This document shows, piece after piece, positions 6,397-41,203 of a stretch of DNA of 64,000 bases. Source of the DNA: Lepisosteus oculatus (lineage: Eukaryota > Chordata > Actinopteri > Semionotiformes > Lepisosteidae); the NCBI RefSeq assembly GCF_040954835.1, contig NC_090703.1, positions 12,209,001 to 12,273,000 of the forward strand. The letters are read 5' to 3'. How positions within the stretch are numbered: position 1 is the stretch's first letter; each line of letters opens with the position of its first letter. A program made the position numbers and the translations under genes. The notes beneath the pieces are model-generated. The model was not told the DNA's origin. It searched no databases and was given only the letters and a program-made list of their open reading frames with translations.

Positions 6397-9173
6397 TCAG
6401 TCCTCCTGCCATTCCTCCTTGGCCCAGTCAGGCAATCGGGTGGAGTACTCAAAGTTAGGGCCTTTATACTTCAGGGCATGAAGGTACATTATCAGCTCCT
6501 TTTCTGTAGGATCTTTCCGCACAATTTTACACTCACTACATAAGGGGTCTTTAACAACTTTAGGAGATTCTGATCTCGTACCAGTATCATCCAGTTCTTC
6601 TCTTTGTACATTCTCTTTGTTCTTTGTACATCCTCTCTCTGAGCCCAAATTATCTGCAAGATCTTCTCTCACTTTGCTGTGCCCCACTTCCACAGTGGTA
6701 TCACACTGAGGTTCAGCAGCAGAAAATCCTGAATGATTCCCAGGCACACTGTCTGTGCTTTGAATACTCTTATTGGCACTATTAGTTAAAAACTTAGTTT
6801 TTCTTTCAGTTGTGCAACTGTCATCCTTGTGTAAATTAGACAGCTCTGCTTCGGGGAAATCACAGACACTTACCACCTCAGCCTTTTCATCGGATCTACA
6901 ACTTTTCTTGTCTGCCCCACACTTACTTTCAGCCACGTCACAGCTACTCACATGTGCCACACCTTCCTTCCCCTGCATCAGCGCGCCACCAGGCAGATCC
7001 TCTTCGGTGATGTCCAGAAGATGAAGGCTCTCCTTGGCCCGATGTTCCTCCACCAGGGCCCTGAGGAGCTGCTCGTCATCCACACCGATGTGGCCCCCCT
7101 TGCCTCTCTCAGGCCCCCACGCCGCCGAGCAGTATATGGGGTCGTTGAGGATGGGGTGACCCAGGAACTGCAAGTGGACGCGGATCTGGTGGGTACGCCC
7201 AGTCAGAGGCCGGCATTGCACCACGCTGGAGCGGCCGTCGGTGCGGAGCCTGTGGAACACCGTGCGGCAGGGCTTCCCCCGCGGGTCAACGCGGCACACG
7301 CCCACTTTGTAGGAAACCACCAAGATCGGCTCCTCGCACACCAGCTCTCCCTCCGGGAACACCCCCAACACCCGGCACACATACTCCTTTTCCAGCTGCA
7401 AGACAAGAGCACCCCCCTGAGCCTCACTGGGGATAACCTCCAAACCCTCCACGTCTCCGCGACTCATTTAAAATATTCCCATTCACAACTCGGAGGTTGC
7501 GCTTCAATCACAGTCGCAAAAACATACTGTGTTAGCAAAACGTGGATAACTACGTTCATAGGTTTATAAAAAAAAGCTCCTCTGTAAATCTAGTTTGAAC
7601 CCTAGTTTGACATACTGACAACGCAGTAAAGCTCCGCGGAGCAGCAGAGGACGGAACAGATTTCCGATGCCAGCAAAACAAAATTTGCAACTGTCCTAAG
7701 GGTACGACAGCAGTAGAAGGCGATGTCCCCCTGACTCACCTGCCTGTCGCGCACCAGCTGGTCCAGTCGTTGCGAGGCCTCCAGTGTGCGGGCGAACAGC
7801 AGCACGCCCGAGGTCAGCCGGTCCAGCCGGTGCACTGTGTGCAGGCTGCTCAGCCCCCGCTCCTTCCCCAAGATGAAGATCACGGTGTTGTGGCGGAAGC
7901 GGCCGCAGGGATGAACAGGCAGCGAGGCCGGCTTGTCCACCACCAGCAGCTCTCCGTCATCCACCAGGATCTCCATGGGCTTGGCACTCACTGGCGGCTC
8001 ATGGCGGTGCACGGTGTTCCTGAGGAAGTCGTTGTTCTGCAAGTGAGTTGGGGGCACACAACAGCCTTTACTGACTTGCTGAAGGATACAGATCAGGGCA
8101 TCAAAGCAACACAGTGTAGAGAAATCAGTTACCTGCTGGAATGTAGCCAGGGATGATATTGCTGCAGTAAATAAGACTGAATGACTTGATCATTTTTTAA
8201 AAAACAACTAATTTAAAACTAATTCAACAGAGGGTTGAAAAATTCTCAATTGTCTGAATTCAGGGCTTATTTACTACAGTTTTTTTGTGTGTTTAGTAAG
8301 TTAAAGAGGGTAGAGTTGCCAGTAAAACCTAGAGATTTTTTCCCTTTTCTGAGATGTCTTGGAACAGTGCACTATAAAAGCCAAAATTCAACGACAGGCT
8401 ATTAACTTCAGGGTGCAAAACGTACTGCTGGCGTGATTTCTCCCTGTACCTGAGAAAGGGTGCTATTCGTTTGAGTTTATTTTCATTACAGTAGAATAAA
8501 ACATGATGAAACATCACATGCACCATAGAAGACTTACCTTAAGAATTATATTAAGGTCCTCAACAGGCTTCTCATTCAGTCTGATTCGGCCTTTCTTGGC
8601 AGCCTGTATATAATACTCCAAAGGTTCAGCGCGAAACTCGGTACGAAACACTTCAAGCAGGCTTTTACCAACCCAGCGGCCCTTGCAGTAGGTCTGGAAG
8701 TCGAAATAATAGGGGTAGACCTTCCGGAGACCCCCCTCGAAGTAGTAACTTGTCTCTTTAAAATGCTCTTGGCTGAAGCTGACGCCGGGGTTTCGCTTCT
8801 GAGGCGGAGGCACATACCTCTCTCCCGGCGGAAGCTTCTTTCCTCCTCCGCCTCGTCGCTTCTTTCTGCGACTGTCATGTTCAGGCTCCTCGATCTCGGC
8901 GATTTTCCGTTTTGTTATTTCTATTTTGCCTGAAGCTGCGGTACCACTGTCCGCTTCACCTTTTCTTTCTACGGGATTACTAGTATCCATTTGCCCAAAT
9001 GGATGAACTGAGTTATGATGAATTGCAAGACTTTGTTTCAACCTTTTCCGGGGAGAGCTGGAAACCATGCAGCTTTTGGTAACTAGACTCCACACATTTT
9101 TGTAACTGGTTGGTACCGTCAAGACAGAAGAAAAAAACCGTTGAATCCGACCTATTTTAGTCCAGTGTTGCAT
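6397..9173 (-). CDS. rpusd2: RPUSD2, RNA pseudouridine synthase domain-containing protein 2
   Basis: A RluA-family pseudouridine synthase that isomerises uridine to pseudouridine in RNA. Three coding exons are read on the minus strand: 9173-8538, 8036-7740 and 7395-6397. Donors are AAG|GTAAGT and CAG|GTGAGT; acceptors are TTGCAG and CTTGCAG. Lengths of 636, 297 and 999 nt keep the frame and give 643 residues. Exon 1 encodes a basic N-terminus that may be organelle-targeting, a Lys/Arg-rich stretch and the family block [20 protein letters not shown]. Exon 2 carries [20 protein letters not shown] and the catalytic motif HRLDRLTSG, with the nucleophile Asp near residue 284. Exon 3 has the [20 protein letters not shown] motif, then a long poorly conserved linker, and ends with a conserved-looking tail around CSEC and [11 protein letters not shown]. 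It is longer than the mammalian protein (about 545 residues), mainly in that linker. The start at 9173 is the first in-frame ATG; a later ATG ([11 protein letters not shown]) is possible. Confidence 0.93.
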
Positions 9174-10198
9174 GTACGAATACTTACGTTTTGATGTCCA
9201 TTTACACGAAATGCATAGCTCGATACCCTGTTCGTGGTAGACAAGTTATATACTGCAATACTTAAGTTCAGTCGTGGTTATATTATGTTTAAAACTGAAA
9301 ACAGTTTTTCGTATGCGGTTCTGAATACAGTTCTGGACATGAGATTCACGTGTTCTCTTTCGCAAAAGATGTTCCAAGGTCCTAGTAGCAGTAGGAGTAG
9401 ATGTCGCAGTGTAATTACGTCATCAAGGACTATGTAGCTACGCCTTAAAAGAAAAGAACGTAGGAAATTTACAAACCGTTGGATGCCGTTCAACCCAGCT
9501 AGCAACTTTGGTTGCCAGTAGTTAATTATCCGATAACCTCAATGTTTGTTAAAATAAATTTCTTCAACAAGTTGTTTGGGTAATTTATTCCAGACTTCAG
9601 AAATCCTTTTGTAAAGCATCTCCTCAAATTCTTATACTCGGTTGATTCTTTAATCTGTCAGACTACCTTTGTCAATTTTGATTGAGAATTTTGAAATACT
9701 GAATGAGGTCCCTTTATAGTTTTCTCAAAACTAAAAATGTTTAGTTTTTGTTCTTGGAATGTCTCCGTGGTGGACATTCCTTTAATTGTGGGAATGTATC
9801 GGGTTGCTCTTTAGTAATATTTAGTCATTATTCTACGTGGAGTCTTACAGGCGTTACTGATGTACAATTTTAACACAAATTTGTACAATGTTAATGTAAT
9901 ATCCATTGATTTAAAGTCATATTGGTTTTATCTATACCGTTTGTTTTTTTATTTCTTCCCACATCTTTCAGATGTAAATTGTATCAATACAAACAACTTT
10001 TTATTAAGTACCTTCTTAAATCTTTTTTTTTTTACCAGGATGTAATACTTCACATTTGTCTGCATATGAAATGTCATCTACCATGTGTTTACACAGCCTA
10101 TTTCAGTGAAACACTTCAATTCCTAAGGCACAAAAGCAAAAAGACTGAAATTCATGAAGAACAAGACAGAGTGAAGAGGTCTTGATTAGAAATAGGGA
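9174..10198. other. Spacer between the RPUSD2 5' end and the pcmtl 3' end
   Basis: This holds the presumed RPUSD2 promoter (9174 to about 9450, with an E-box CACGTG near 9347) and AT-rich DNA with no ORF that I can support. The pcmtl 3' UTR probably ends close to 10200, so the two genes run in the same direction with about 1 kb between them. Confidence 0.5.
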
Positions 10199-10223: not shown

Positions 10224-10250
10224 TTTATTGACATATATTACAGTTTTATT
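10224..10250 (-). terminator. Two poly(A) signals for pcmtl
   Basis: On the minus strand AATAAA occurs at 10250-10245 and again at 10229-10224. They lie about 450-475 nt downstream of the inferred TGA at 10701-10699, a plausible 3' UTR length. Their position supports the short terminal coding exon at 10711-10699. Confidence 0.5.
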
Positions 10251-10698: not shown

Positions 10699-10711
10699 TC
10701 AGAGCTCTCCT
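10699..10711 (-). other. pcmtl: pcmtl terminal coding mini-exon (RGEL-stop)
   Basis: Exon 12085-11916 ends in phase 2 (TGG CCC AG|GTATGA). Downstream, the acceptor TTTCTTCCGCAG is followed by A GGA GAG CTC TGA, which completes Arg and adds Gly-Glu-Leu-stop. One human PCMT1 isoform ends in RDEL through alternative 3' splicing at the same place. The exon lies about 1.2 kb from its donor, across a LINE tail. Reading through the donor instead gives RYDDGTV-stop. No transcript is available to decide. Confidence 0.6.
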
Positions 10712-13700
10712 CTGCGGAAGAAACACATAATAGATTGCCCATCTTGTAATGTAACGCACAAACAGCAGCAGATAGAAAAGAACAAACTAGCAAACACAGA
10801 TAGGAGTCTGTCATGCCGATGCTTTCTGAACATCACTTATGATGAATCAGTGGTGGCAGCAGCCATCTTCTACGCTGTTGTGTGCTTGGGCAGCAGCATC
10901 ATGACAAAAGATGCAAATAAGCTCCATAAACTCATCAAGAAGGCTGGCACTGGGCTGGGGGATGAGCCTTGACCCCATGGAGGTGGTGGCTGAGAGGAGA
11001 ATGCTGACCAAGCTCACAGCCATCATGAACAACACCTCTCATCCGCTTCATGGGACTGTTACTGGGCAGCAGAGCACTTTTAGCAACAGACTGCTCCAGC
11101 TACGGTGTTCAAGGGAACGTTTCCGCAGGTCTTTCCTCCCGGCGGCTGTCAGGGTAGGCTGCCCGTGGCTAGGACTTTCAGCCCTTCATTTGCTCCTCTA
11201 TGGACAGCATGTTTACTCCATTGTACTTTTTGGACAATCAGTCCGTATAAACCTATGCACATTTTGCACATATTTTATTGTTTTTACAGTGACTATGATC
11301 AGCACATTTTGCACACACCTATGTATTTATTTTTATTTATCTTGTTTGTCTTTTGTTTTATAACTATTCTGATGTCTGTTTTGCTTGTCTTGGGCTGGAC
11401 TGCTGTAACACATCAATTTCCCTACGGGATTAATAAAGTATTATCTATCTATCTGATCTCTGACTTTTGTTTTTTATCACCGAGGTAAAAGAAGCATCTG
11501 TACACGACAGCAGTATGTTCATGTAGAAGAACGAAAAACTGTCCATTTTGAAGCAGGTCAGTGGTAGGACTTTAAAGCCAGCTGACGGGAAAAATGTTTC
11601 CACCAGCTTGAAAGTGGTCATGCTGAATACACTGATTTGTAATGAGCATATTGTGATTCACCTTATATGTATCAAACACAACTTACTACTGCAGATAAAT
11701 GTAAGATACAAATTCATTAATTTAACTCAGATAAAAGATTAATCAGATTGATTTGGTGAATATGAATAGAAGAACAACAATCAAGAGAGACCAAGGATAC
11801 ATATGGAGGACAGATGGACTGCTGAAGGGTTGTATTTCTGAGCTCATGACGCTGACAGATGCAGCGCTCACAGCACGCATGAAAAGCACAGATTTACACA
11901 GTTCCATCATCATACCTGGGCCATTGATGATCCTTGTCAGTGAGGGGAACATAGATGACTCCCATCAGGGCCTTCCTGGAGAAGGAGCCATCACTCTGTC
12001 TGTCATACTGCTCCAGCACCTGGCTTCCTCCCTCGGGACCCACAGGCAGGACCAGCCTCCCCCCTGGCTTCAGCTGGGCCAACAGCTGCCACAAGGCACA
12101 CAATGGGTCATTTCTTCCCTCACAATATTTTCATATCCGTCTGTATATGTCGACTGAAATACACCGTCTTTCTTCCGTTCAGTTCCCTAATGGTGACAGT
12201 CTGCAAAAAGCTTCACCTACCCACTGCTGCCCACAGGTAAATCCTAAACTGCTACAGAAAAGCTACAGGTGGGTTTGCTCCCAAGCCTAAACACAGCTGT
12301 ATGTGTCACTCCAATACGAGAAGAAAGACATCCTGCTTAATTAAGGTGAGGTGGAACTGATGATAGGGGAGTACAGTGAGTTTATTAGTTTGGCTAAAAT
12401 ATTGTTTCACCAGGTGAAGACAATTACTCTGCATTGGAATAAGTGCAATCAACATAAATCCATCTTGCTGAATGTTGCCCAATTGTGCTCATTTTAACTC
12501 CATGGCAAAGCCTGCACAGGTCCACAAACCACTACTTCTAATTCCCCTCAGCCCAGTTCTTACTGCTTTGGGAACTGCAGCGGCTGCCGCGCCCACATGG
12601 ATGGCATCATACGGGGCTCCCTCTGGGAAACCCTGCCGACCATCTGCCACTGGAAAAGATAAACCGATCATAAGAAATGAGAGTCCAAGAGCTTGATCAC
12701 GTTTCTCGCTGCCGATCACACTGAATATTATGATCTGTTTGTCAGTTCCTATATAACATGAAGTTTTTCTTGCAATAGTATAGCAGGATGTATCACATGT
12801 CTCCATCTACCATTCGTTTTAGTTACTTTAAACAAAGGCAACTGGAAAAACTGAAAAGACAACACAATCCTGTTGTCTCACTGTGCAGCTACCTCTAAGA
12901 ATTTAAATTAAGTTATTTAAGTTATCATGGTATATTAGTGCCACAGATGTCACCCTGCAACTCACAACTGGCAACCCAATGAAGCTAAGCAGGTGTGAGC
13001 GTGGTCAGTACCTGGATGGGAGACCTCCTGGGAAAAACTAAGGTTTCTGCTGGAAGAGGTGTTAGTGGGGCCAGCAGGGGGCGCTCACCCTGCAGTTCAT
13101 GTGGGTCCTAATGCCCCAGTGTAGTGACGGGGACACTATACTGTAAACAGGCGCCGTCCTTCAGATGAGACGTAAAACCGAGGTCCTGACTCTCTGTGGT
13201 AATTAAAAATCCCAGGGCATTTCTTGAAAAGAGTAGGGGTGTAACCCTGTCCTGGCCAAATTTCCCATTGGCCCTTACCAATCGTGGCCTCCTAATAATC
13301 CCCCTCTATGAATTGGCTTCATTACTCTGCTCTCCTCCACACTGATAGCTGATGTGTGGTGAGCGTTCTGGCGGAGGTGGAGGGGAATCCCCATTACCTG
13401 TAAAGTGCTTTGAGTGGAGTGTCCAGAAAAGTGCTGTATAAGTGTAAGCAATTATTATTATTATTATTATTATTATTACTTACTCGGGGTAAGAAGAGCC
13501 ACTCTCATACAGGGTACAGATTAGCTGCAAAAGCAATTACATAGGCCCCCCCTAGGCAAGAGATTCCTGTTCTTACCAAGAAGCTTAACCCGTCCAGAGG
13601 TGAGCAGGTCTGGGTCATCGGCTTGGACATTTCGAATGGATTCCTCCACAAGCTCAGCAATGTGCTCAATTCCAATCACCCTCCCCGAACAACCCACCTG

Positions 13701-15685
13701 ACCAGGGACAGAACAGCCGGGGAGAGAAGGGTATGCTGAGAACATATACTGCACAACGAGCAGAAATTAAACTGGATATCACAGATGATCCTCTGTTTTT
13801 TCATCACCAGTGAATACCCCACTTGTGTTATTGACGGTGCCCTCACCCGAGCCAAAAACAGCCATCAGGATCATCAGCTCGATCAGGAACTCCCGGCCTA
13901 GCAACCGCATTCCTTTGGTGCTTCCCTACCACCCTAACACACTCTCTATCCCCAGGACCATTAACAACAACTTTCCTATCCTACAGGATGATCCCTCCAA
14001 TGGGGCCCTCTTTCCTGACCCCGACCACCTAACCTACGTAACCTTGACAATCGAAGAAGGATCCACAGCTGAAACGTTGTGTTTTCTTTCTTCTCTTTTC
14101 AGCACGGAATAAACTTATTACTTGTTCCTTTGCAGCCTATGCATGCTGTCATAGCTACACACCTGAACGACTTATCAAAAAATATTAATTTATCTGAAGA
14201 TGTTGCTTCAGATAGGCAGAGTTAGGGCCCCAGAAGGAAGGTACTGTAATAATACTTTCAAAGGCAGCAGTGAACTTTCAACATACCATTCTTGCAAAGC
14301 AGGCAGTGAGATAGCCACTGCCCGAGCCCACATCCAGGGCTGTGGCTCCTTCAGTCAGCTTGTCTCTCAGCACCTCCAAAGCATGGGCATGCTGCACAAG
14401 ACAAACACACTCACGTGCCGTTAACTTAATCTGAATGAAAGCCAAGGCAGAATACAGTATTTAAGAGACTTAAAACCAATTGCTGCCGAGATGTTTGCCC
14501 CTTTTCTCTAAAAAAGAAAAAAGGCTGAAAACATAACATCATCAAAAATAAACTCCCACTTGAGGAATGTCAAACATTTAAAGTCGAGACAAAGGCATTC
14601 CATTATGTCTTATATGAACCACTGAATGCATTCAATAAGTTTTTCATGATCCAATATACTGTAACATAACAAAGTGACAAACAATACAGGTTAAGCTATA
14701 CAGAAAGCATAGGTTGTCACAATGTTTTTTATTTTTACTTCAATCGTTACAGTAACACTTACAATGCCTTCACGATTTGTGATGGTATTTGACTTACCAT
14801 GTGTGGGGCACTAATGGTAGCCTTGTACCCTGCGACAACAAATATAAAGTCAATTAGTCACCGGTGCCTGTAATAGGGCTCCATTCAACTACCTAGATAC
14901 AGTATGTAAATGTAGAAATTACTTGGTACGGAGAAACATGGATTTCTAAATAAAATATATTTCATACTTTTCAATTACTAATAACCTTTAAAATCACAAT
15001 TTGCAAATAAGTCTCATAGCTAAAATTTACAGAAATTCATACTACATCTCAAAGAGCGAAGCTAATAAACCAGTCATATGTAATCTGCAAAGCTCATCTG
15101 TGTAATTGTAAAGTATACCTATAGACTGTGGTGCATCCATATAGGGAAAGTCTTTAGTGTAGTGCCCACGGTCTGTGGCCAGCATCACATTAAACACGCT
15201 GTCAGATGTAATTACTCCGCGATCTTAAGAAAAAGATGTAAAAAAACAAACAATGAAATAAACACGCAAACAAAAAAGAAGAATCCTGTTTTCTTTTACT
15301 GAACAGTGAAGACACCCCTTCTTCCAAAGAGGCCCCAATCCATGTGTACATGTATCTCTGTACATCCCTTAATGAAACGGACTCAACAATGCATAGATCA
15401 GCGTGCAACAAGTACACAAAAGAGCTATGTGAACAACATACATTACGTCAAATACCACTGCGCTACTTGTCGAGGTGCGATTGTAATTTAAAGGCAATCT
15501 CAAAACCAAGTGGTAAGGTTATTTCCTTTTCTATCAGGACAATCATGCAGTGGTCATTCCAGGTTACCCTTGAGCCGGGTGATGAGCTCTGCATGTGTTC
15601 TGCCATTGGACAGGCGCGCCATGGTCCTGGACAGCAGCACACCCATTGGGAAAGCTACTGTAGCCAAGAGACTAACAAGTCGCAT
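10699..15685 (-). CDS. pcmtl: Protein-L-isoaspartate O-methyltransferase (PCMT1/pcmtl type) with N-terminal extension and RGEL end
   Basis: A PIMT enzyme that uses S-adenosylmethionine to methylate isoaspartyl residues and so starts repair of aged proteins. Eight coding exons are read on the minus strand: 15685-15568, 15223-15119, 14829-14798, 14391-14287, 13697-13577, 12649-12564, 12085-11916 and 10711-10699. All junctions are GT-AG and the 750 nt stay in frame (249 residues). Family blocks are MLATDRGHY (53-61), [20 protein letters not shown] (70-89), the SAM-binding [20 protein letters not shown] (103-122), VADGRQGF (161-168), [10 protein letters not shown] (174-183), [13 protein letters not shown] and [16 protein letters not shown]. 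Residues 1-21 add a hydrophobic segment; Met22 (ATG 15622-15620, ACCATGG context) would give 228 residues, the usual PIMT length. The last exon encodes GEL-stop, giving RGEL. The first seven exons are strong; the start and the last exon are inferred. Confidence 0.88.
10830..11455 (+). mobile_element. Non-LTR retrotransposon 3' end (LINE), truncated
   Basis: The plus strand reads like the C-terminal end of a fish LINE reverse transcriptase ORF, with frameshifts and stops: [52 protein letters not shown], then [20 protein letters not shown]. It ends with GGGATTAATAAAGTATT and a TATCTATCTATC microsatellite tail, typical of such LINEs. It lies in the last intron of pcmtl, antisense to the gene, and is 5'-truncated and dead. 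Confidence 0.8.
12955..13478 (+). mobile_element. 5S-rRNA-derived SINE, near full length
   Basis: The head matches a 5S rRNA internal promoter: GAAGCTAAGCAGG followed by GTCAGTACCTGGATGGGAGA. A body of about 400 bp shared with two other copies (18.0 and 34.8 kb) follows, then an L2-like tail (GTAAAGTGCTTTGAGTGGAG ... AAGTGCTGTATAAGTGTAAG) and an (ATT)n run at 13451-13477. It is inserted in a pcmtl intron, antisense to the gene. The head implies pol III transcription; the tail implies mobilisation by an L2-type LINE. Confidence 0.85.
13071..13084 (+). promoter_or_regulatory. CTCF-type motif inside the SINE
   Basis: CCAGCAGGGGGCGC fits the vertebrate CTCF core (CCASYAGRKGGCRS) at every position. 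The copy at 34.8 kb has CCAGTAGGAAGAAC at the equivalent place, and the 18.0-kb copy has lost the motif. Binding is inferred only. Confidence 0.5.
13800..14170 (+). mobile_element. Penelope-like element, truncated RT/EN fragment plus pLTR
   Basis: The plus frame contains [20 protein letters not shown] and [19 protein letters not shown], which resemble the YHP-containing segment after the reverse transcriptase core in Penelope-like retroelements. From 14050 it runs into the terminal repeat seen elsewhere in the window (GAAACGTTGTG, TTCTTCTCTTTTCAG, GGAATAAAC, GCATGCTGTCATAGCTACAC). The hammerhead-like core here is damaged. It is inserted antisense between two pcmtl exons. Confidence 0.6.
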
Positions 15686-16741
15686 TTCCCACACTGAGTC
15701 AGCCCTGCCAAACACACAAAACCAACAGTCAGAAACGTTAGACAGAAATCCGAGACCTGCCCAATGACCTTGAAATAATCCATTTCCCCCTTCCCTGACA
15801 CCAAAAAACACAGTTTGTGGGCACGTTCACTGTATGAAGACCTTACTGACACAATAAACGCTTTTATTGACACATTTCATCACATGGTTAGTTAAACTAT
15901 ATGGGATTTGTACATGTTTAAACGAAATCAAACACAAAAGCATCATAAGAGTAAATTATTCTTTCTGATTTTACTGTGTATTGATCACGTCTAATTTTAA
16001 ATGCTTGGATCTCTAACAATTCATCTCAAAAGAAAATAAATCACATAGCCTTACTGGGTATTTCTGTCTACATTGATGATGATCCACAACAGCAAAAAAA
16101 CAGAACTATCAAATAGACTTCTAACTGCGATGTGCTTATTGTGATACGTTGTCAAGTGGTTCCCATACACATACTGTATCACGGCCAGATGATACAACAT
16201 ATCTGAAGTCGCAGGATGGCTGTTTTGTTACAGTAGCACAGCTAACTTTGAACAGTAAAACGGGTGTTATGCGAGACCATGTCATGATGTAACTATATAA
16301 ACTGTGTAACTGAAACGAAGTTTCCAGCCAGTCGATATCAATTTTAACCGTCACGCAGAACTTGCAAAACTCTTTAACGAAACATTATTTTAATAATTCC
16401 CAATTAACGATATAATAAGCATTAGACTGTTGGTACCTATGGTAATATTTTACACAACGAGCTAGGGAAAAATTAAAATGACATTGTAATATTCGAAGAA
16501 TATAAAGATGTAACGGAACATCGCTGAAGTAGAACCGAGGATAAAATCAGTTTGAAACACCGGAAACGGACACTGAAAAAACACCACCGGTACTTCGTAA
16601 ATAAACTGATGTCAAAGGTGAATATTCTCCCACCACCAGTCACATTTCTGATGCGAACACCTCACCTGCACAGCTGAGCTGAGCTGAACTCCGCTTAAAC
16701 TCACCAACACTTTGTAATACTTTACGGCACTGAACCTCCAT
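15655..16741 (-). other. pcmtl: pcmtl 5' exon with an overlapping upstream ORF (spliced, inferred)
   Basis: A candidate first exon runs from at least 16741 to 16666 and ends CTGTGCAG|GTGAGG; the next exon begins at 15704 after TTTGGCAG. Joined, an ATG at 16741-16739 opens 41 codons that stop at 15657-15655. That stop is past the first pcmtl ATG (15685) and before the second in-frame ATG (15622). No transcript confirms this exon. Confidence 0.35.
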
Positions 16742-17539
16742 GGAAGGGGTGGGAAATGTTGCCTAAGAAAACTATTTTACCCAATAGCGTTACAGCTTCA
16801 AGTTAAACTGACAGACAAAGCGCCAAATCAGATTACCAAAAGTACCACAACCTCATACATGATTGGTTGCTTGGAATGTCATTCTACCCCTTCCCTGAGA
16901 TATGCTAAATCGTTTTGCGGGCAGATAACAGGAAGAAGGATTTCATTTAACATAAATAGAAAAGATGATTCCTTTGCAGTAGAATTGCTGGATTTTTGTC
17001 TTTGTTGTTTTATTATTAAACAAAGATATCTTGAATTGCTAACAGGAGGTAATTTTCGCTTTGTGTGTTTTTTTCTGTTACAATGCAAGTAAGAAAAAAA
17101 GCTCTACATTTCAGGTTAGCCATACTGATAGTTGCGATTGCTTCAAAACGATATTTTTATTATGCTTTTTTCATTTGGATATATATTTCAAATATTCTCG
17201 GAAGATCAGTGCGATGTGGTTAAACGCTGACCGTCACAATTATGCAGCTGGATAAAGACGACAGACCTATTTTGCTTTTACATTATTTGTAATGTTTATC
17301 TCAACGTTTCACGTTACACGCAAAAAGATAGGTAGAGATGTGCATCCACATTTGAAGTACATCAGATATCAGCCACTTTTTACATACATGCAAATAAATA
17401 TGCAGGTTATTCAAAACGATGATAAAATTAAGTGTTACAGATCAAATTCGAAATCCACAATTGTGAGGGATTCGTGGGGAAAATGCTGACAGAATTCTGC
17501 CCTTTCTTCTGATCTAGTAGACCCCGAAAGAGCGAGGGC
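16742..17539. promoter_or_regulatory. Divergent promoter region of pcmtl (-) and CCDC32 (+)
   Basis: About 0.8 kb separates the presumed pcmtl first exon from the CCDC32 start codon. CCAAT occurs at 16781-16785 and its reverse, ATTGG, at 16862-16866, close to the pcmtl side. No TATA box is obvious. The span also contains AT-rich DNA with no supported ORF. A shared control region is inferred from spacing and orientation. Confidence 0.45.
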
Positions 17540-19817
17540 ATGATCGACAGTCTGGAGACGCAGCGGCCGCGCTCCAGCGGCGATCTCTGGTCGGAGATCT
17601 GCTCGGGGCTGCCCGGTCACGAGGCCGGGGGTCAGGCAGGGGCAGAGTTCACAGATTCTTTCGAACCGCAGCCGCACGAGAATCTGCAGCACCCCGTCGC
17701 TAACGGGACCGAGGACGCCCCCCGTCTCAGCGCATGGGCGCCCATGGCTGACTCCGAAGTGTACATTGCCAGTCTGGGTAAGTGGGGTGGGACCTTAAGA
17801 CACCATGCACCGAGACGAGTTGCCCACTTGGATGGGCGAGGGGAAAGTAAAAAAAAAACAAACTAGTCTTTCGTTCGTATCTATGTATATACGCTCCTAC
17901 CCCGGTATCCGAACCTAATTCGTTCGTGGAAATCTGTTCGGAAGGCGGGAGATCGTAAATCGAAAATTAAAATTCCATTATTTCTTATAGTAATAATAAT
18001 TGCTTACACTTATATAGCGCTTTTCTAGACACTCCACTCAAAACGCTTTACAGGTAATGGGGACTCCCCTCAACCACCACCAATGTGCAGCATCCACCTG
18101 GATGATGCGACAGCAGCCTTAGTGCGCCAGACAACTCGCCACACACCAGCTATCTAGAGCAAAGTAATGTAGCCCATTCATAGAGGGGGATTATTAGGAG
18201 GCCACGATTGGTAAGGGCCAATGGGAAATTTGGCCAGGACGCTGGGGTTACACCCCTACTCTTTTCGAGATTTTACGTCTCATCTGAAGGACGGCGCCTG
18301 TTTACAGTATAGTGTCCCCATCACTGTACTGTGGCATTAGGACCCACATGGACCGCAGGGTGAACTAAGCAGCAACCTTAGTTTTCCCAGGAGGTCTCCC
18401 ATCCAGGTACTGAGCAGGCTGCTAGCTATGGGGAAAATTCCACCCTGTTCCGAACCGAAGACAAGTTCACTCCACCTTAAACATATAATACCATACAGAC
18501 CATTATAGCAAGCTTAGTGAACAATGCAGTTCTTCACCAAATAAGCCAACTATAGCTGTAAAATAATATAATATTTACATATTTCATTTTGTAGAAGATC
18601 GCTATCCAAACAATCGGCTAGAACAATGTGCACGCTGTTGTTGAATATTACGCTAAATAACCTTTTTCTCTCCCTTAAGACGCCATAATGAACAGCAACT
18701 ACAAAACAAACACAAAAACACTCGCTGTGATCATAAACAAAGCGCTTAACACCAATGTCTTGCACTCGCGCAGAAACAGACAGCTGTTGGTGGCGCTGAA
18801 CTCAACTGTTCGCAGAAGATTCTCGGACAAAATTGGTCACTTTCGAACTTCTAAATTGGGATTAGAGAAATTACGTTTTTATAACGAATTACAAATTACA
18901 CATTCTTCATGTTCGGATTAGCGAACATTTGTATACCGAACATTCTTATACCGGGGTATAAGTGTACTTTGTTTTTCTGCATTTTTTTTAAAGAGTTGTG
19001 CTGTCTTTTGTGTCTTTTTTTATCTCCTGTCTTCTCTCTCAAGAAAACCGTCTACGCAGAATTAAGGGCCAGTCGCAGGAAGTGACGTCACGTGAAATGC
19101 TTCGCACCCTCTCTCAAGCCAGGAAGGAATGCTGGGATAGATTCCTCCAGGACGAACAAATCTCAGACCTCTTTCAGGAAGGCAGTGACTTTGACCAGAG
19201 GTGAGTGGACAGTGGGAGTGTACCCGGCCTTTAACCTCTAATGACTAGCTCACAGATTTTAAACCACTGGCATTTGAAACTAAATGTACTAAAATAACTG
19301 GGTTTTTTTCCATCTGGCTGGTTGATTCTAGTCAATCTAGATCCAAAACAGAGTTTTGAACAATCTCAGTATTCCTAGGACAGATAGTTCATGCCTGTCG
19401 ACTTTGTGTTCTTTTGTTTTGTTTTTTCATGAAGGAATCAAAGTTCTAACTTGTATTAAAAAGTATTCATCATCATGAATCATCTTTGCGAGCTATTGAT
19501 ATACATTTTATATATGTGAAATGTGGCAGGATTTTTTCGAACCATCATGGCGCTGAGTACTGTAGGTTAACACTCCAGGCTAGTACCTGAGGCATGAGTG
19601 AACAGTGTGCAAACAGTCTTTCTCCTTTGTGCACAGTGCCCTGGAGCAGCTAAAACGCTGGCTCCAGCCAGAGAAAGTGGCCATCAGCGCTGAAGAGCTG
19701 CAGTACCTCCTATTACCAGAGGAGCCCAGAGAGACAGCAGGCACGGAGGAGGGGCTGAGAGGAGCTGAGGCAGAGGAGCAAGATGAAGACGAAGAGAACC
19801 AGGCACCAGAAAAATAA
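17540..19817 (+). CDS. ccdc32: CCDC32, coiled-coil domain-containing protein 32
   Basis: Three coding exons, 17540-17777, 19044-19200 and 19637-19817, give 191 residues (the human protein is about 185). Donors are CTGG|GTAAGT and CAGAG|GTGAGT; acceptors are CTCTCAAG and GTGCACAG. The frame is kept throughout (238+157+181 nt). Recognisable blocks are SGDLWSEICSGLP near the N-terminus, APMADSEVYIASLE at the first junction, LRRIKGQSQEVTSREMLRTL, ARKECWDRFLQDEQ and LEQLKRWLQPEKVAISAEEL; the end is very acidic. CCDC32 helps assemble the AP2 clathrin adaptor together with AAGAB, and its loss in humans causes a craniofacial and neurodevelopmental syndrome. The start is the ATG that opens the conserved N-terminal region. 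Head-to-head placement with pcmtl suggests a shared promoter region. ATTAAA at 19997-20002 is a likely poly(A) signal. Confidence 0.93.
17893..18963. mobile_element. Inverted-repeat (DNA-transposon-like) element filling CCDC32 intron 1
   Basis: TACCCCGGTAT (17898-17908) recurs inverted as ATACCGGGGTA (18948-18958). Inward of each lie TCCGAAC/GTTCG motifs: CCGAACCTAATTCGTTCG on the left and CGGATTAGCGAACATTTG on the right. The span looks like a non-autonomous element with decayed terminal inverted repeats. A 5S SINE is nested inside it. I see no transposase ORF. Confidence 0.5.
17988..18432 (-). mobile_element. 5S-rRNA-derived SINE, inverted, nested
   Basis: It is the reverse complement of the family at 12955. 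It starts with (ATT)n and the tail TATATAGCGCTTTTC, carries the shared body, and ends in the 5S-derived GGAGGTCTCCCATCCAGGTA. The far 5' head is truncated. It has inserted into the inverted-repeat element of CCDC32 intron 1. Confidence 0.85.
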
Positions 19818-26984: not shown

Positions 26985-27545
26985 CATCGCGATATAACAT
27001 ACCCAGGCAAAACGCCCACCCCCATATCGTAACACGGAGTCCACGTATCGCGATATGACATATTCCGACAAAATGCCCCACCCCTATGTCGTGACATGAA
27101 GCCCGTATATCGCGATATGAAATACCCCGACAAAATGCCCCGCCCCTCTATGTCGCGACATGAAGCCCGTATATTGCGATATGACATACCGCGACAAAAT
27201 GCCCCGCCCCCTATGTCGCGACATGAAGCCCGTATATCGCGATATGACATACCGCGACAAAATGCCCCGCCCCCTATGTCGCGACATGAAGCCCGTATAT
27301 CGCGATATGAAACAACCCGACAAAATGCCCCGCCCCCTATGTCGCGACATGAAGCCCGTATATCGCGATATGACATACCGCGACAAAATGCCCCGCCCCC
27401 TATGTCGCGACATGAAGCCCGTATATCGCGATATGAAACAACCCGACAAAATGCCCCGCCCCCTATGTCGCGACATGAAGCCCGCATATCGCGATATGAC
27501 ATACCCTGACATAATATGCTGACCCCATGTTCTGATACAAAGTCC
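26985..27545. repeat. 63-bp CpG-rich minisatellite, about 8 units plus decayed flanks
   Basis: The TGTCGCGACATGAAGCCCG block recurs at 27151, 27214, 27277, 27340, 27403 and 27466 (exact 63-bp steps), with diverged units before (27087, 27024) and after. Each unit has two perfect 12-bp palindromes, ATATCGCGATAT and ATGTCGCGACAT, and the GC tract CCCCGCCCCC. Units alternate between GACATACCGCGAC and GAAACAACCCGAC versions. Since 63 is divisible by 3 and the unit lacks stops, long ORFs appear on both strands. These are treated as by-products. Confidence 0.9.
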
Positions 27546-39676: not shown

Positions 39677-40075
39677 GGCTTATCGCAAATATATTAGTTT
39701 ATCTGAATGTTTCCTGCACTTTAAAGTATTAAAATCAAGACACAGCGAGAGATGATATGGATGAGAACATTTAGCTGTGGCCTTGTCAACATTTCAACTA
39801 ACACTTATGTGTAGATATTCCTTACTAATGGGAATCACTACAAATATTAACAAGAAGTTGATCATTGCTGCTCACAAAGTATGACCAAGACTTTTAAAAT
39901 GTGATACTTTTGAGTCACATTTGTTTTTCAGTGACTCCACATTCTTTATAACTTTCAATGGTTGATCTTGTGTTTTGTTAACATATTACACTTTTTTAAT
40001 GTAAGTTTTATTTTATGTTGTATTCTAGGCAGGTGTTACCAATTTCCTTTTTACCTGGGCAGCAGAGGGAGTGTC

Positions 40076-41203
40076 ATGATGGAACTGGGTTTGCTTAGAA
40101 ATGAGTCCCAGGAAAACACTTCTCTCTCCTCTTCCTCCTTCGCTGGTCTGGACCTCCTGTTTGACCTGAAGCCTGTTTTCATACCGCTGTATGCATTGCT
40201 GGTACTGGTTGCCTGCTGTGGGAACCTCCTGCTCATCGTGCTCATTGCCATTAATAGGAAGCTGCACAGCACCACCAATTTCCTCATCGGGAACCTGGCG
40301 CTCGCTGACCTGGTCATGTGTCTCTTCTGCGTCCCGCTCACTGCCTCCTACGCCTTTGAGCTGCACGGCTGGCTTTATGGGAGCTTCATGTGTCATTTTG
40401 TCATGCTCATGCAGTCCACCACCGTGTTTGTGGCCGTGCTGTCCCTCACTGCCATTGCAGTGGATCGCTACGTGGTTGTGGCGTATCCCATTCGAAGACG
40501 AATTGGCTGGCGCTGCTGCATCTATTTGGTTGGTACGATATGGCTTTGCTCCTTGGCCCTCTCGTCTCCAACCTTTCTGCACACCAGCTACCTAGATCTG
40601 AGCACTACAGGATACACCATGGCAATCTGTGAGGAGTTCTGGAGAGACCAAGAACAGCAAAGGCTGATCTACTCCTGTTTTGTACTCCTGCTGTCCTACT
40701 TTATCCCTCTCTCTGCAGTCTCTATCTCTTACTGTGCCATCTCCAACCATCTGCGCAAACGGAGCATGCCAGGGGCTGCCGTAGCAGCCTCCTCTAACCG
40801 AGAGAAGTGGGCGCACAAGAAACACAAGACCTTCCGACTCCTGCTGGTGTCTGTGCTCTGCTTTGCTTTCTCCTGGCTCCCCCTGCAAGTGGTTAATCTC
40901 ATCAGGGATCTGGATTCAGACTTCACCATTCTGGGGAAGAATTACATCAATGTGATCCAAGTCTCCTGCCATCTGGTGGCCATGAGCTCTGCCTGCTACA
41001 ACCCTTTCATCTATGCCTCGCTGCACGATAAGTTCCGCTTCTACCTGGGAAGATATTTCTACCCACGCCAGCGGCACAGCGGAGGGAGCAGTGTCCACAC
41101 CTCCCAGCGCATCCCACGTGTCCACACGTGCTCCACCCTAGCAGACATACCGATGGTCATCACAGACAAGCTGGTACTGGAGGGACGCTTCTCATTTAAC
41201 TAG
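40076..41203 (+). CDS. prlhr2: Prolactin-releasing-peptide receptor-like GPCR (PRLHR family)
   Basis: A class A GPCR of the PRLHR/GPR10 family, receptors for RF-amide prolactin-releasing peptides. It has a single coding exon of 375 residues (human PRLHR has 370). The extracellular N-terminus has two N-glycosylation sequons (NES at 9, NTS at 14). Seven helices fit. TM1 has GN at 49-50. TM2 carries NFLIGNLALADLVMC, with Asp78. The disulphide pair is Cys106 and Cys185. DRY is at 130-132 and NPFIY at 309-313. The PRLHR-type signatures ICEEFW (184-189) and HLVAMSSACYNPFIYA are clear. TM6 has SWLP where CWLP is usual. The C-terminus ends RFSFN without a PDZ motif. The start at 40076 is chosen for length and because an acceptor-like site lies just upstream; a longer frame from 39962 would add a hydrophobic leader that is probably not translated. 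The paralogue (PRLHR2 rather than PRLHR1) is inferred from location. Confidence 0.9.
   Translation: MMELGLLRNESQENTSLSSSSFAGLDLLFDLKPVFIPLYALLVLVACCGNLLLIVLIAINRKLHSTTNFLIGNLALADLVMCLFCVPLTASYAFELHGWLYGSFMCHFVMLMQSTTVFVAVLSLTAIAVDRYVVVAYPIRRRIGWRCCIYLVGTIWLCSLALSSPTFLHTSYLDLSTTGYTMAICEEFWRDQEQQRLIYSCFVLLLSYFIPLSAVSISYCAISNHLRKRSMPGAAVAASSNREKWAHKKHKTFRLLLVSVLCFAFSWLPLQVVNLIRDLDSDFTILGKNYINVIQVSCHLVAMSSACYNPFIYASLHDKFRFYLGRYFYPRQRHSGGSSVHTSQRIPRVHTCSTLADIPMVITDKLVLEGRFSFN

Follow-up and report, generated by a model that had tools for sequence, protein, structure and literature searches.

A probable isoaspartyl methyltransferase gene of the gar Lepisosteus oculatus with a hydrophobic N-terminal run and an RGEL-ending last exon

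Isoaspartyl damage arises in secreted and endoplasmic reticulum (ER) proteins too, and the repair enzyme, protein-L-isoaspartate (D-aspartate) O-methyltransferase (PIMT), is generally seen as cytosolic. Mammalian PIMT isoforms end in RWK or RDEL (PMC7696048, PMC9146343), the RDEL tail having been reported in 1992 (references in PMC7859441). Human isoforms VI and VII are N-terminally shorter, isoform VI through the use of an alternative start codon (PMC7696048), so that a choice among start codons has precedent in this family. The mouse record NP_032812.2 has been used from residue 59 to 283 (PMC7859441) and, since the standard domain was taken from residue 59, a mammalian N-terminal extension is also on record. 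In zebrafish, Pcmt ends in RDEL and is 85% identical to the human protein, while Pcmtl, for which a teleost duplication has been proposed as origin, ends in GDEL, is 69% identical to the human protein and, as a recombinant protein, methylates isoaspartyl peptides (PMC7859441). Neither zebrafish protein, as annotated, has a targeting peptide according to TargetP-2.0, and the same source allows for N-extended forms in zebrafish, for which experiments would be needed (PMC7859441). The KDEL receptor, which would have to recognize such tails, pairs the Asp at -3 with Arg169 in a salt bridge and the Glu at -2 with Arg5, whereas the basic residue at -4 sits by Trp120 and Glu117; cargo ending in ADEL or DDEL is mostly secreted (PMC8248988).

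A gene of this type lies on the minus strand of the DNA analysed here, a 64-kb window of L. oculatus contig NC_090703.1 (64,000 nucleotides), in which eight coding exons with GT-AG introns (15704-10699) join in frame (Table 1). Exon borders were placed by eye, from a three-frame translation and the border sequences, keeping GT-AG introns and the PIMT frame, and the splicing itself is a prediction of this model. The spliced frame can be read through the DNA for 249 residues from Met1, or 228 from Met22, and the span given in the preliminary description (10699-15685) coincides exactly with its extent from Met1 to the stop codon. Neither end of the gar protein is new in kind, since the sources cited above record all three features for vertebrate PCMT1: a tail of RDEL, an extended N-terminus and alternative start codons.

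Table 1. Features of the candidate pcmtl gene and its surroundings, numbered from the first base of the window.
Feature	Position	Strand	Basis or remarks
Tentative 5' exon, upper limit arbitrary	16666..16780	-	donors GTGAGT at 16704 or GTGAGG at 16665
Coding exon 1, 137 nt	15568..15704	-	splice signals and frame; ADSVWE upstream of Met1, hydrophobic run, ends ..ITRLK
In-exon Met codons of exon 1	Met1 15685, Met14 15646, Met22 15622	-	translation
Hydrophobic run, 16 residues (residues 3-18)	15632..15679	-	translation, hydropathy
Putative signal-peptide c-region SRTMA (Ala at -1, Thr at -3)	15617..15631	-	rule of thumb
Coding exon 2, 105 nt	15119..15223	-	spliced frame; PCMT domain
Coding exon 3, 32 nt, apparently equivalent to zebrafish pcmtl exon 4	14798..14829	-	spliced frame; skipping shifts the frame
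Coding exon 4, 105 nt, SAM-binding motif LDVGSGSG	14287..14391	-	spliced frame; structure match
Coding exon 5, 121 nt	13577..13697	-	spliced frame
Coding exon 6, 86 nt	12564..12649	-	spliced frame
Coding exon 7, 170 nt, ends ..DKDHQWP plus two Arg bases	11916..12085	-	spliced frame
Last coding exon, 13 nt, AGGAGAGCTCTGA: finishes Arg, then Gly-Glu-Leu-stop	10699..10711	-	spliced frame
Pair of AATAAA poly(A)-like signals with starts at 10250 and 10229, past the stop by about 450-470 nt	10224..10250	-	hexamer scan

The translation matches the Pfam PCMT profile (PF01135) as a full-length domain (E 1.6e-80, profile positions 3-209 of 210), and the best two of 13 matched structure sequences are animal PIMTs (1i1n, E 2.2e-103, and 1r18, E 1.7e-72). 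It is identical to the human PIMT chain 1I1N at 155 of 221 aligned residues (70%), and both proteins have the LDVGSGSG motif and a C-terminal ..YVPLTDK..QW-R; 1I1N differs in being a 226-residue chain without the hydrophobic extension and in having Val at residue 120, where the gar protein has Ile. Identity to the fly PIMT (1r18) amounts to 124/216 for the gar protein and 122/215 for the human chain and, because the former is as close to the fly enzyme as the latter, the gar enzyme is not decaying. The gene thus probably codes for a PCMT1-type PIMT, and the isoaspartyl methyltransferase identity proposed in the preliminary description is borne out by the profile and structure matches. Residue 120, encoded in the exon at 13697-13577 (minus strand), is also the site of the human Ile120Val polymorphism, at which zebrafish Pcmt and Pcmtl are both said to carry Val (PMC7859441).

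Compared with zebrafish through its published description, the gene is likelier to be named pcmtl than pcmt, because its 70% identity to the human protein is close to the 69% of Pcmtl and not to the 85% of Pcmt; pcmtl is the likeliest name and is used below. The exon structure resembles that of zebrafish pcmtl as well, with an apparently equivalent frame-shifting exon: skipping of zebrafish exon 4 causes a frameshift after residue 53 and a stop after residue 58 (PMC7859441), and omission of gar coding exon 3 is computed to shift the frame after residue 53 too, although the stop then comes after residue 66. When reversed, the published zebrafish exon-4 morpholino (PMC7859441) reads ATATG followed by GTAGG, which suits an exon that, like its gar counterpart, has ATG as its last bases ahead of a GT donor. 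Since the zebrafish numbering makes gar exon 3 the fourth exon, one extra 5' exon would be expected in gar, in agreement with a splice acceptor, ending TTTGGCAG, that directly precedes 15704 and because of which the transcript probably begins further upstream. Both proteins also have a DEL-like tail with one changed position, which is however a different one (GDEL in zebrafish Pcmtl, RGEL in gar).

On the chromosome, pcmtl sits between a pseudouridine synthase gene (6400-9245, minus strand; PseudoU_synth_2 in two of the three open frames tested), probably RPUSD2 by resemblance, and CCDC32 (17540-19817, plus strand; Pfam E 6.1e-60 after splicing by hand). In human, RPUSD2 and CCDC32 adjoin on chromosome 15, with PCMT1 on chromosome 6. 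Because the gar neighbours correspond to this chromosome 15 pair, an older vertebrate duplication would fit better than the teleost duplication proposed for pcmtl. An inverted pair of SINE-like repeats (13085-13464 and 17987-18363; three paired stretches, 90-96% complementary) has one copy in a pcmtl intron and the other in the first CCDC32 intron. Elsewhere in the window there are a long open frame on the plus strand (39935-41200) for a G-protein-coupled receptor (Pfam 7tm_1), whose closest solved structure is the prolactin-releasing peptide receptor (8zps, E 2.4e-85), and a tandem array at 26986-27515 (63-base unit, 8.4 copies, 89% matches) with several frames open on both strands; Rfam at gathering scores gave no match within the window.

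The first coding exon offers three in-frame Met codons, and Kozak's rule serves to rank them. Met1 lies in the context GAAATGC (G at -3, C at +4), Met14 is flanked by C at -3 and G at +4, and Met22 lies in ACCATGG (A at -3, G at +4), which by that rule is the best context and better than that of Met1. Scanning ribosomes should use Met1 part of the time, because it precedes the other two in the exon and its -3 base is a purine, and, with a weaker context at Met1 and the best one at Met22, leaky scanning would yield both forms. The 5' exon in Table 1 is a guess, four GTRAG donors being present in 15750-17200, of which 16704 and 16665 were tried, the other two lying at 16054 and 15846. An ATG at 16741 in this tentative exon opens a frame that differs from that of Met1, runs across it and ends at 15655, upstream of both Met14 and Met22, leaving 32 bases before the latter; as this upstream frame overlies Met1, Met22 would be favoured further if the mRNA begins upstream of 16741, whichever of the two donors is used. 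A longer coding N-terminus from an upstream exon was considered and is unsupported, since neither donor tried puts this ATG in frame with Met1. The main product would accordingly be expected to start at Met22, as a soluble cytosolic or nuclear enzyme that methylates isoaspartyl residues, with a minor 249-residue form made from Met1 through leaky scanning.

The hydrophobic start described for the Met1 form is present in the spliced translation, as a 16-residue run ahead of the PIMT domain. Its best 16-residue mean Kyte-Doolittle hydropathy (2.275) is reached within the first 30 residues by 16 of the 548 ATG frames of the window with at least 30 sense codons, and by 378 of the 98,903 stop-free sequences among 200,000 shuffles of the 60 bases that separate the Met1 and Met22 codons. 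So hydrophobic a run is rare among the shuffles, which weighs against Met22 as the main start, yet it is unusual rather than extraordinary. The position-free insertion energy is +0.45 kcal/mol for the 16 residues and at least +3.77 kcal/mol in each of 12 windows of 19 residues, suggesting that the run would be poor as a transmembrane helix, a candidate role that is considered unlikely, and could pass as the core of a signal peptide.

One explanation of these features is that Met1 is used and the run is a cleavable signal peptide, so that the enzyme would enter the ER lumen, be weakly retrieved through RGEL and be in part secreted. By rule of thumb, the extension can be divided into a short basic n-region, an apolar core of 16 residues and a c-region of five residues whose -3,-1 pair is valid, and a cut after Ala23 (TMA/R) would satisfy the -3,-1 rule. 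There are no N-X-S/T sites in the 249 residues, so lumenal glycosylation would be no obstacle. Human PCMT1 has moreover been found outside ovarian cancer cells, with effects that are blocked by antibody, in a paper whose main text makes no mention of a signal peptide, RDEL, an isoform or the term N-terminal (PMC8760697). Against this, the run is short, Pro13 in its core and Arg20 in the c-region, ahead of the putative cut, are unfavourable, the start context of Met22 is better and the tail lacks the acid at -3 (PMC8248988), making a secretory enzyme unlikely. The TargetP-2.0 result is silent on the Met1 form, because it was obtained on zebrafish proteins without the extension.

The same extension could direct the longer form to mitochondria, its first 32 residues acting as a presequence, or tether it to a membrane with the enzyme facing the cytosol. 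As in a mitochondrial presequence, residues 1-32 contain four Arg (positions 2, 20, 24 and 29) but lack Asp, Glu and Lys, with Glu33 as the first acid, and the charges on either side of the run are about equal, so that topology is not fixed by the positive-inside rule. Across 20 windows of 18 residues the hydrophobic moment stays low, however, never exceeding 0.95 on the Kyte-Doolittle scale, and the insertion energies given above argue against a stable membrane anchor; both variants are regarded as quite unlikely. As to the origin of the extension, that of mammalian PCMT1 is longer (58 residues by the mouse numbering). A putative human PCMT1 extension has VWE and VSLL in common with the gar sequence; its local alignment score is 27 in the coding frame, whereas the other two frames give 12 and 13. 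Shuffles matched the local score in 1002 of 20,000 cases and the global score in 174 of 20,000. This makes homology between the two extensions a lead that is suggestive only, and, since the putative human sequence aligns weakly in the right frame, coding upstream of Met22 would be favoured.

At the other end, the 13-nt last exon giving RGEL is present and in phase, as had been described. When AGs on both strands of the window were followed in the phase in which AG provides the first two codon bases, only the acceptor at 10711 led to a tail of four residues with EL at its end; when lengths of up to 13 residues were allowed in the same phase, EL-ending tails numbered 2 on the plus strand and 10 on the minus strand. 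Because no other site of this kind and phase occurs in the window, chance was rejected as the origin of RGEL. Acceptor strength alone would not single out 10711: it has 10 pyrimidines of 14 (range 8 to 12 among the remaining seven exons), and 7 of the 82 AGs scanned in intron 7 equal this mark, being YAG with at least 10/14 pyrimidines. The exon is accepted as most likely the counterpart of the mammalian RDEL exon, which presumably has the same coding length, and the mammalian PCMT1 RDEL isoforms likewise join a PIMT domain to a tetrapeptide ending in EL, differing in that they have RDEL where gar has RGEL.

A second C-terminal form is also possible, because the frame stays open past the donor of exon 7 to a stop shortly afterwards, ending in RYDDGTV, and intron 7 contains three AATAAA signals (11279-11337) of its own, among 11 A[AT]TAAA hexamers between 9200 and 12000. 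The stronger version of this idea, in which the RGEL exon is mostly skipped and RYDDGTV corresponds to mammalian RWK, would suit the two C-terminal forms of mammals, RWK and RDEL (PMC7696048). It is nevertheless decidedly unlikely, given that the exon 7 donor (AGGTATGA) is intact, that the 13-nt exon has the phase expected of it and a tail unique in the window, and that zebrafish Pcmtl ends in GDEL (PMC7859441). Intron 7 also harbours, at 10850-11460 on the plus strand, an apparent LINE-type 3' end, opposite in strand to pcmtl and near a TCTA repeat (judged by eye).

RGEL had been described from the outset as a non-standard retrieval signal, and the receptor contacts agree: the C-terminus departs from the KDEL-receptor ligand motif [K/R/H]DEL in having no Asp at -3 to pair with Arg169 (PMC8248988). 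It retains Arg at -4, Glu at -2 and Leu at -1, so that gar RGEL loses the -3 contact whereas zebrafish GDEL loses the one at -4. Weak retrieval is still conceivable, because three positions are kept and the main text of PMC8248988, which makes no mention of glycine, is silent on glycine at -3; weak binding of RGEL by the KDEL receptor is accordingly no more than predicted. A limited look at the KDEL and retention literature found no occurrence of RGEL as a retention sequence. The rGel of toxin papers is, we assume, recombinant gelonin and not the tetrapeptide.

Taken together, it is on balance probable that pcmtl encodes an ordinary cytosolic or nuclear repair enzyme, perhaps with a minor Met1 form, and that its RGEL tail is a decayed RDEL exon. 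The signal of the 13-nt exon would have decayed to RGEL in gar and to GDEL in zebrafish Pcmtl and, with RDEL so changed, the tail would no longer be a strong ER retrieval signal. The preliminary description had read both ends together as pointing to a PIMT of the secretory pathway; this found no support beyond suggestion, the points already raised against it being joined by the zebrafish Pcmtl tail, which differs from RDEL at another position. A secretory enzyme is possible and not favoured, and an exported form, if any, would be minor at most.

A further idea, given a slim chance, is that one mRNA specifies two enzymes, a cytosolic one from Met22 and a signal-peptide form from Met1 that, poorly retrieved through RGEL, would be released to repair extracellular isoaspartyl damage, dividing the labour with a Pcmt that keeps RDEL. 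A working signal peptide in fish pcmtl, if true, would provide one route for RDEL-type PIMT into the ER. If, as seems likelier, the tail decays in pcmtl while pcmt keeps RDEL, comparing both genes in a range of fishes would show whether the tail has any importance.
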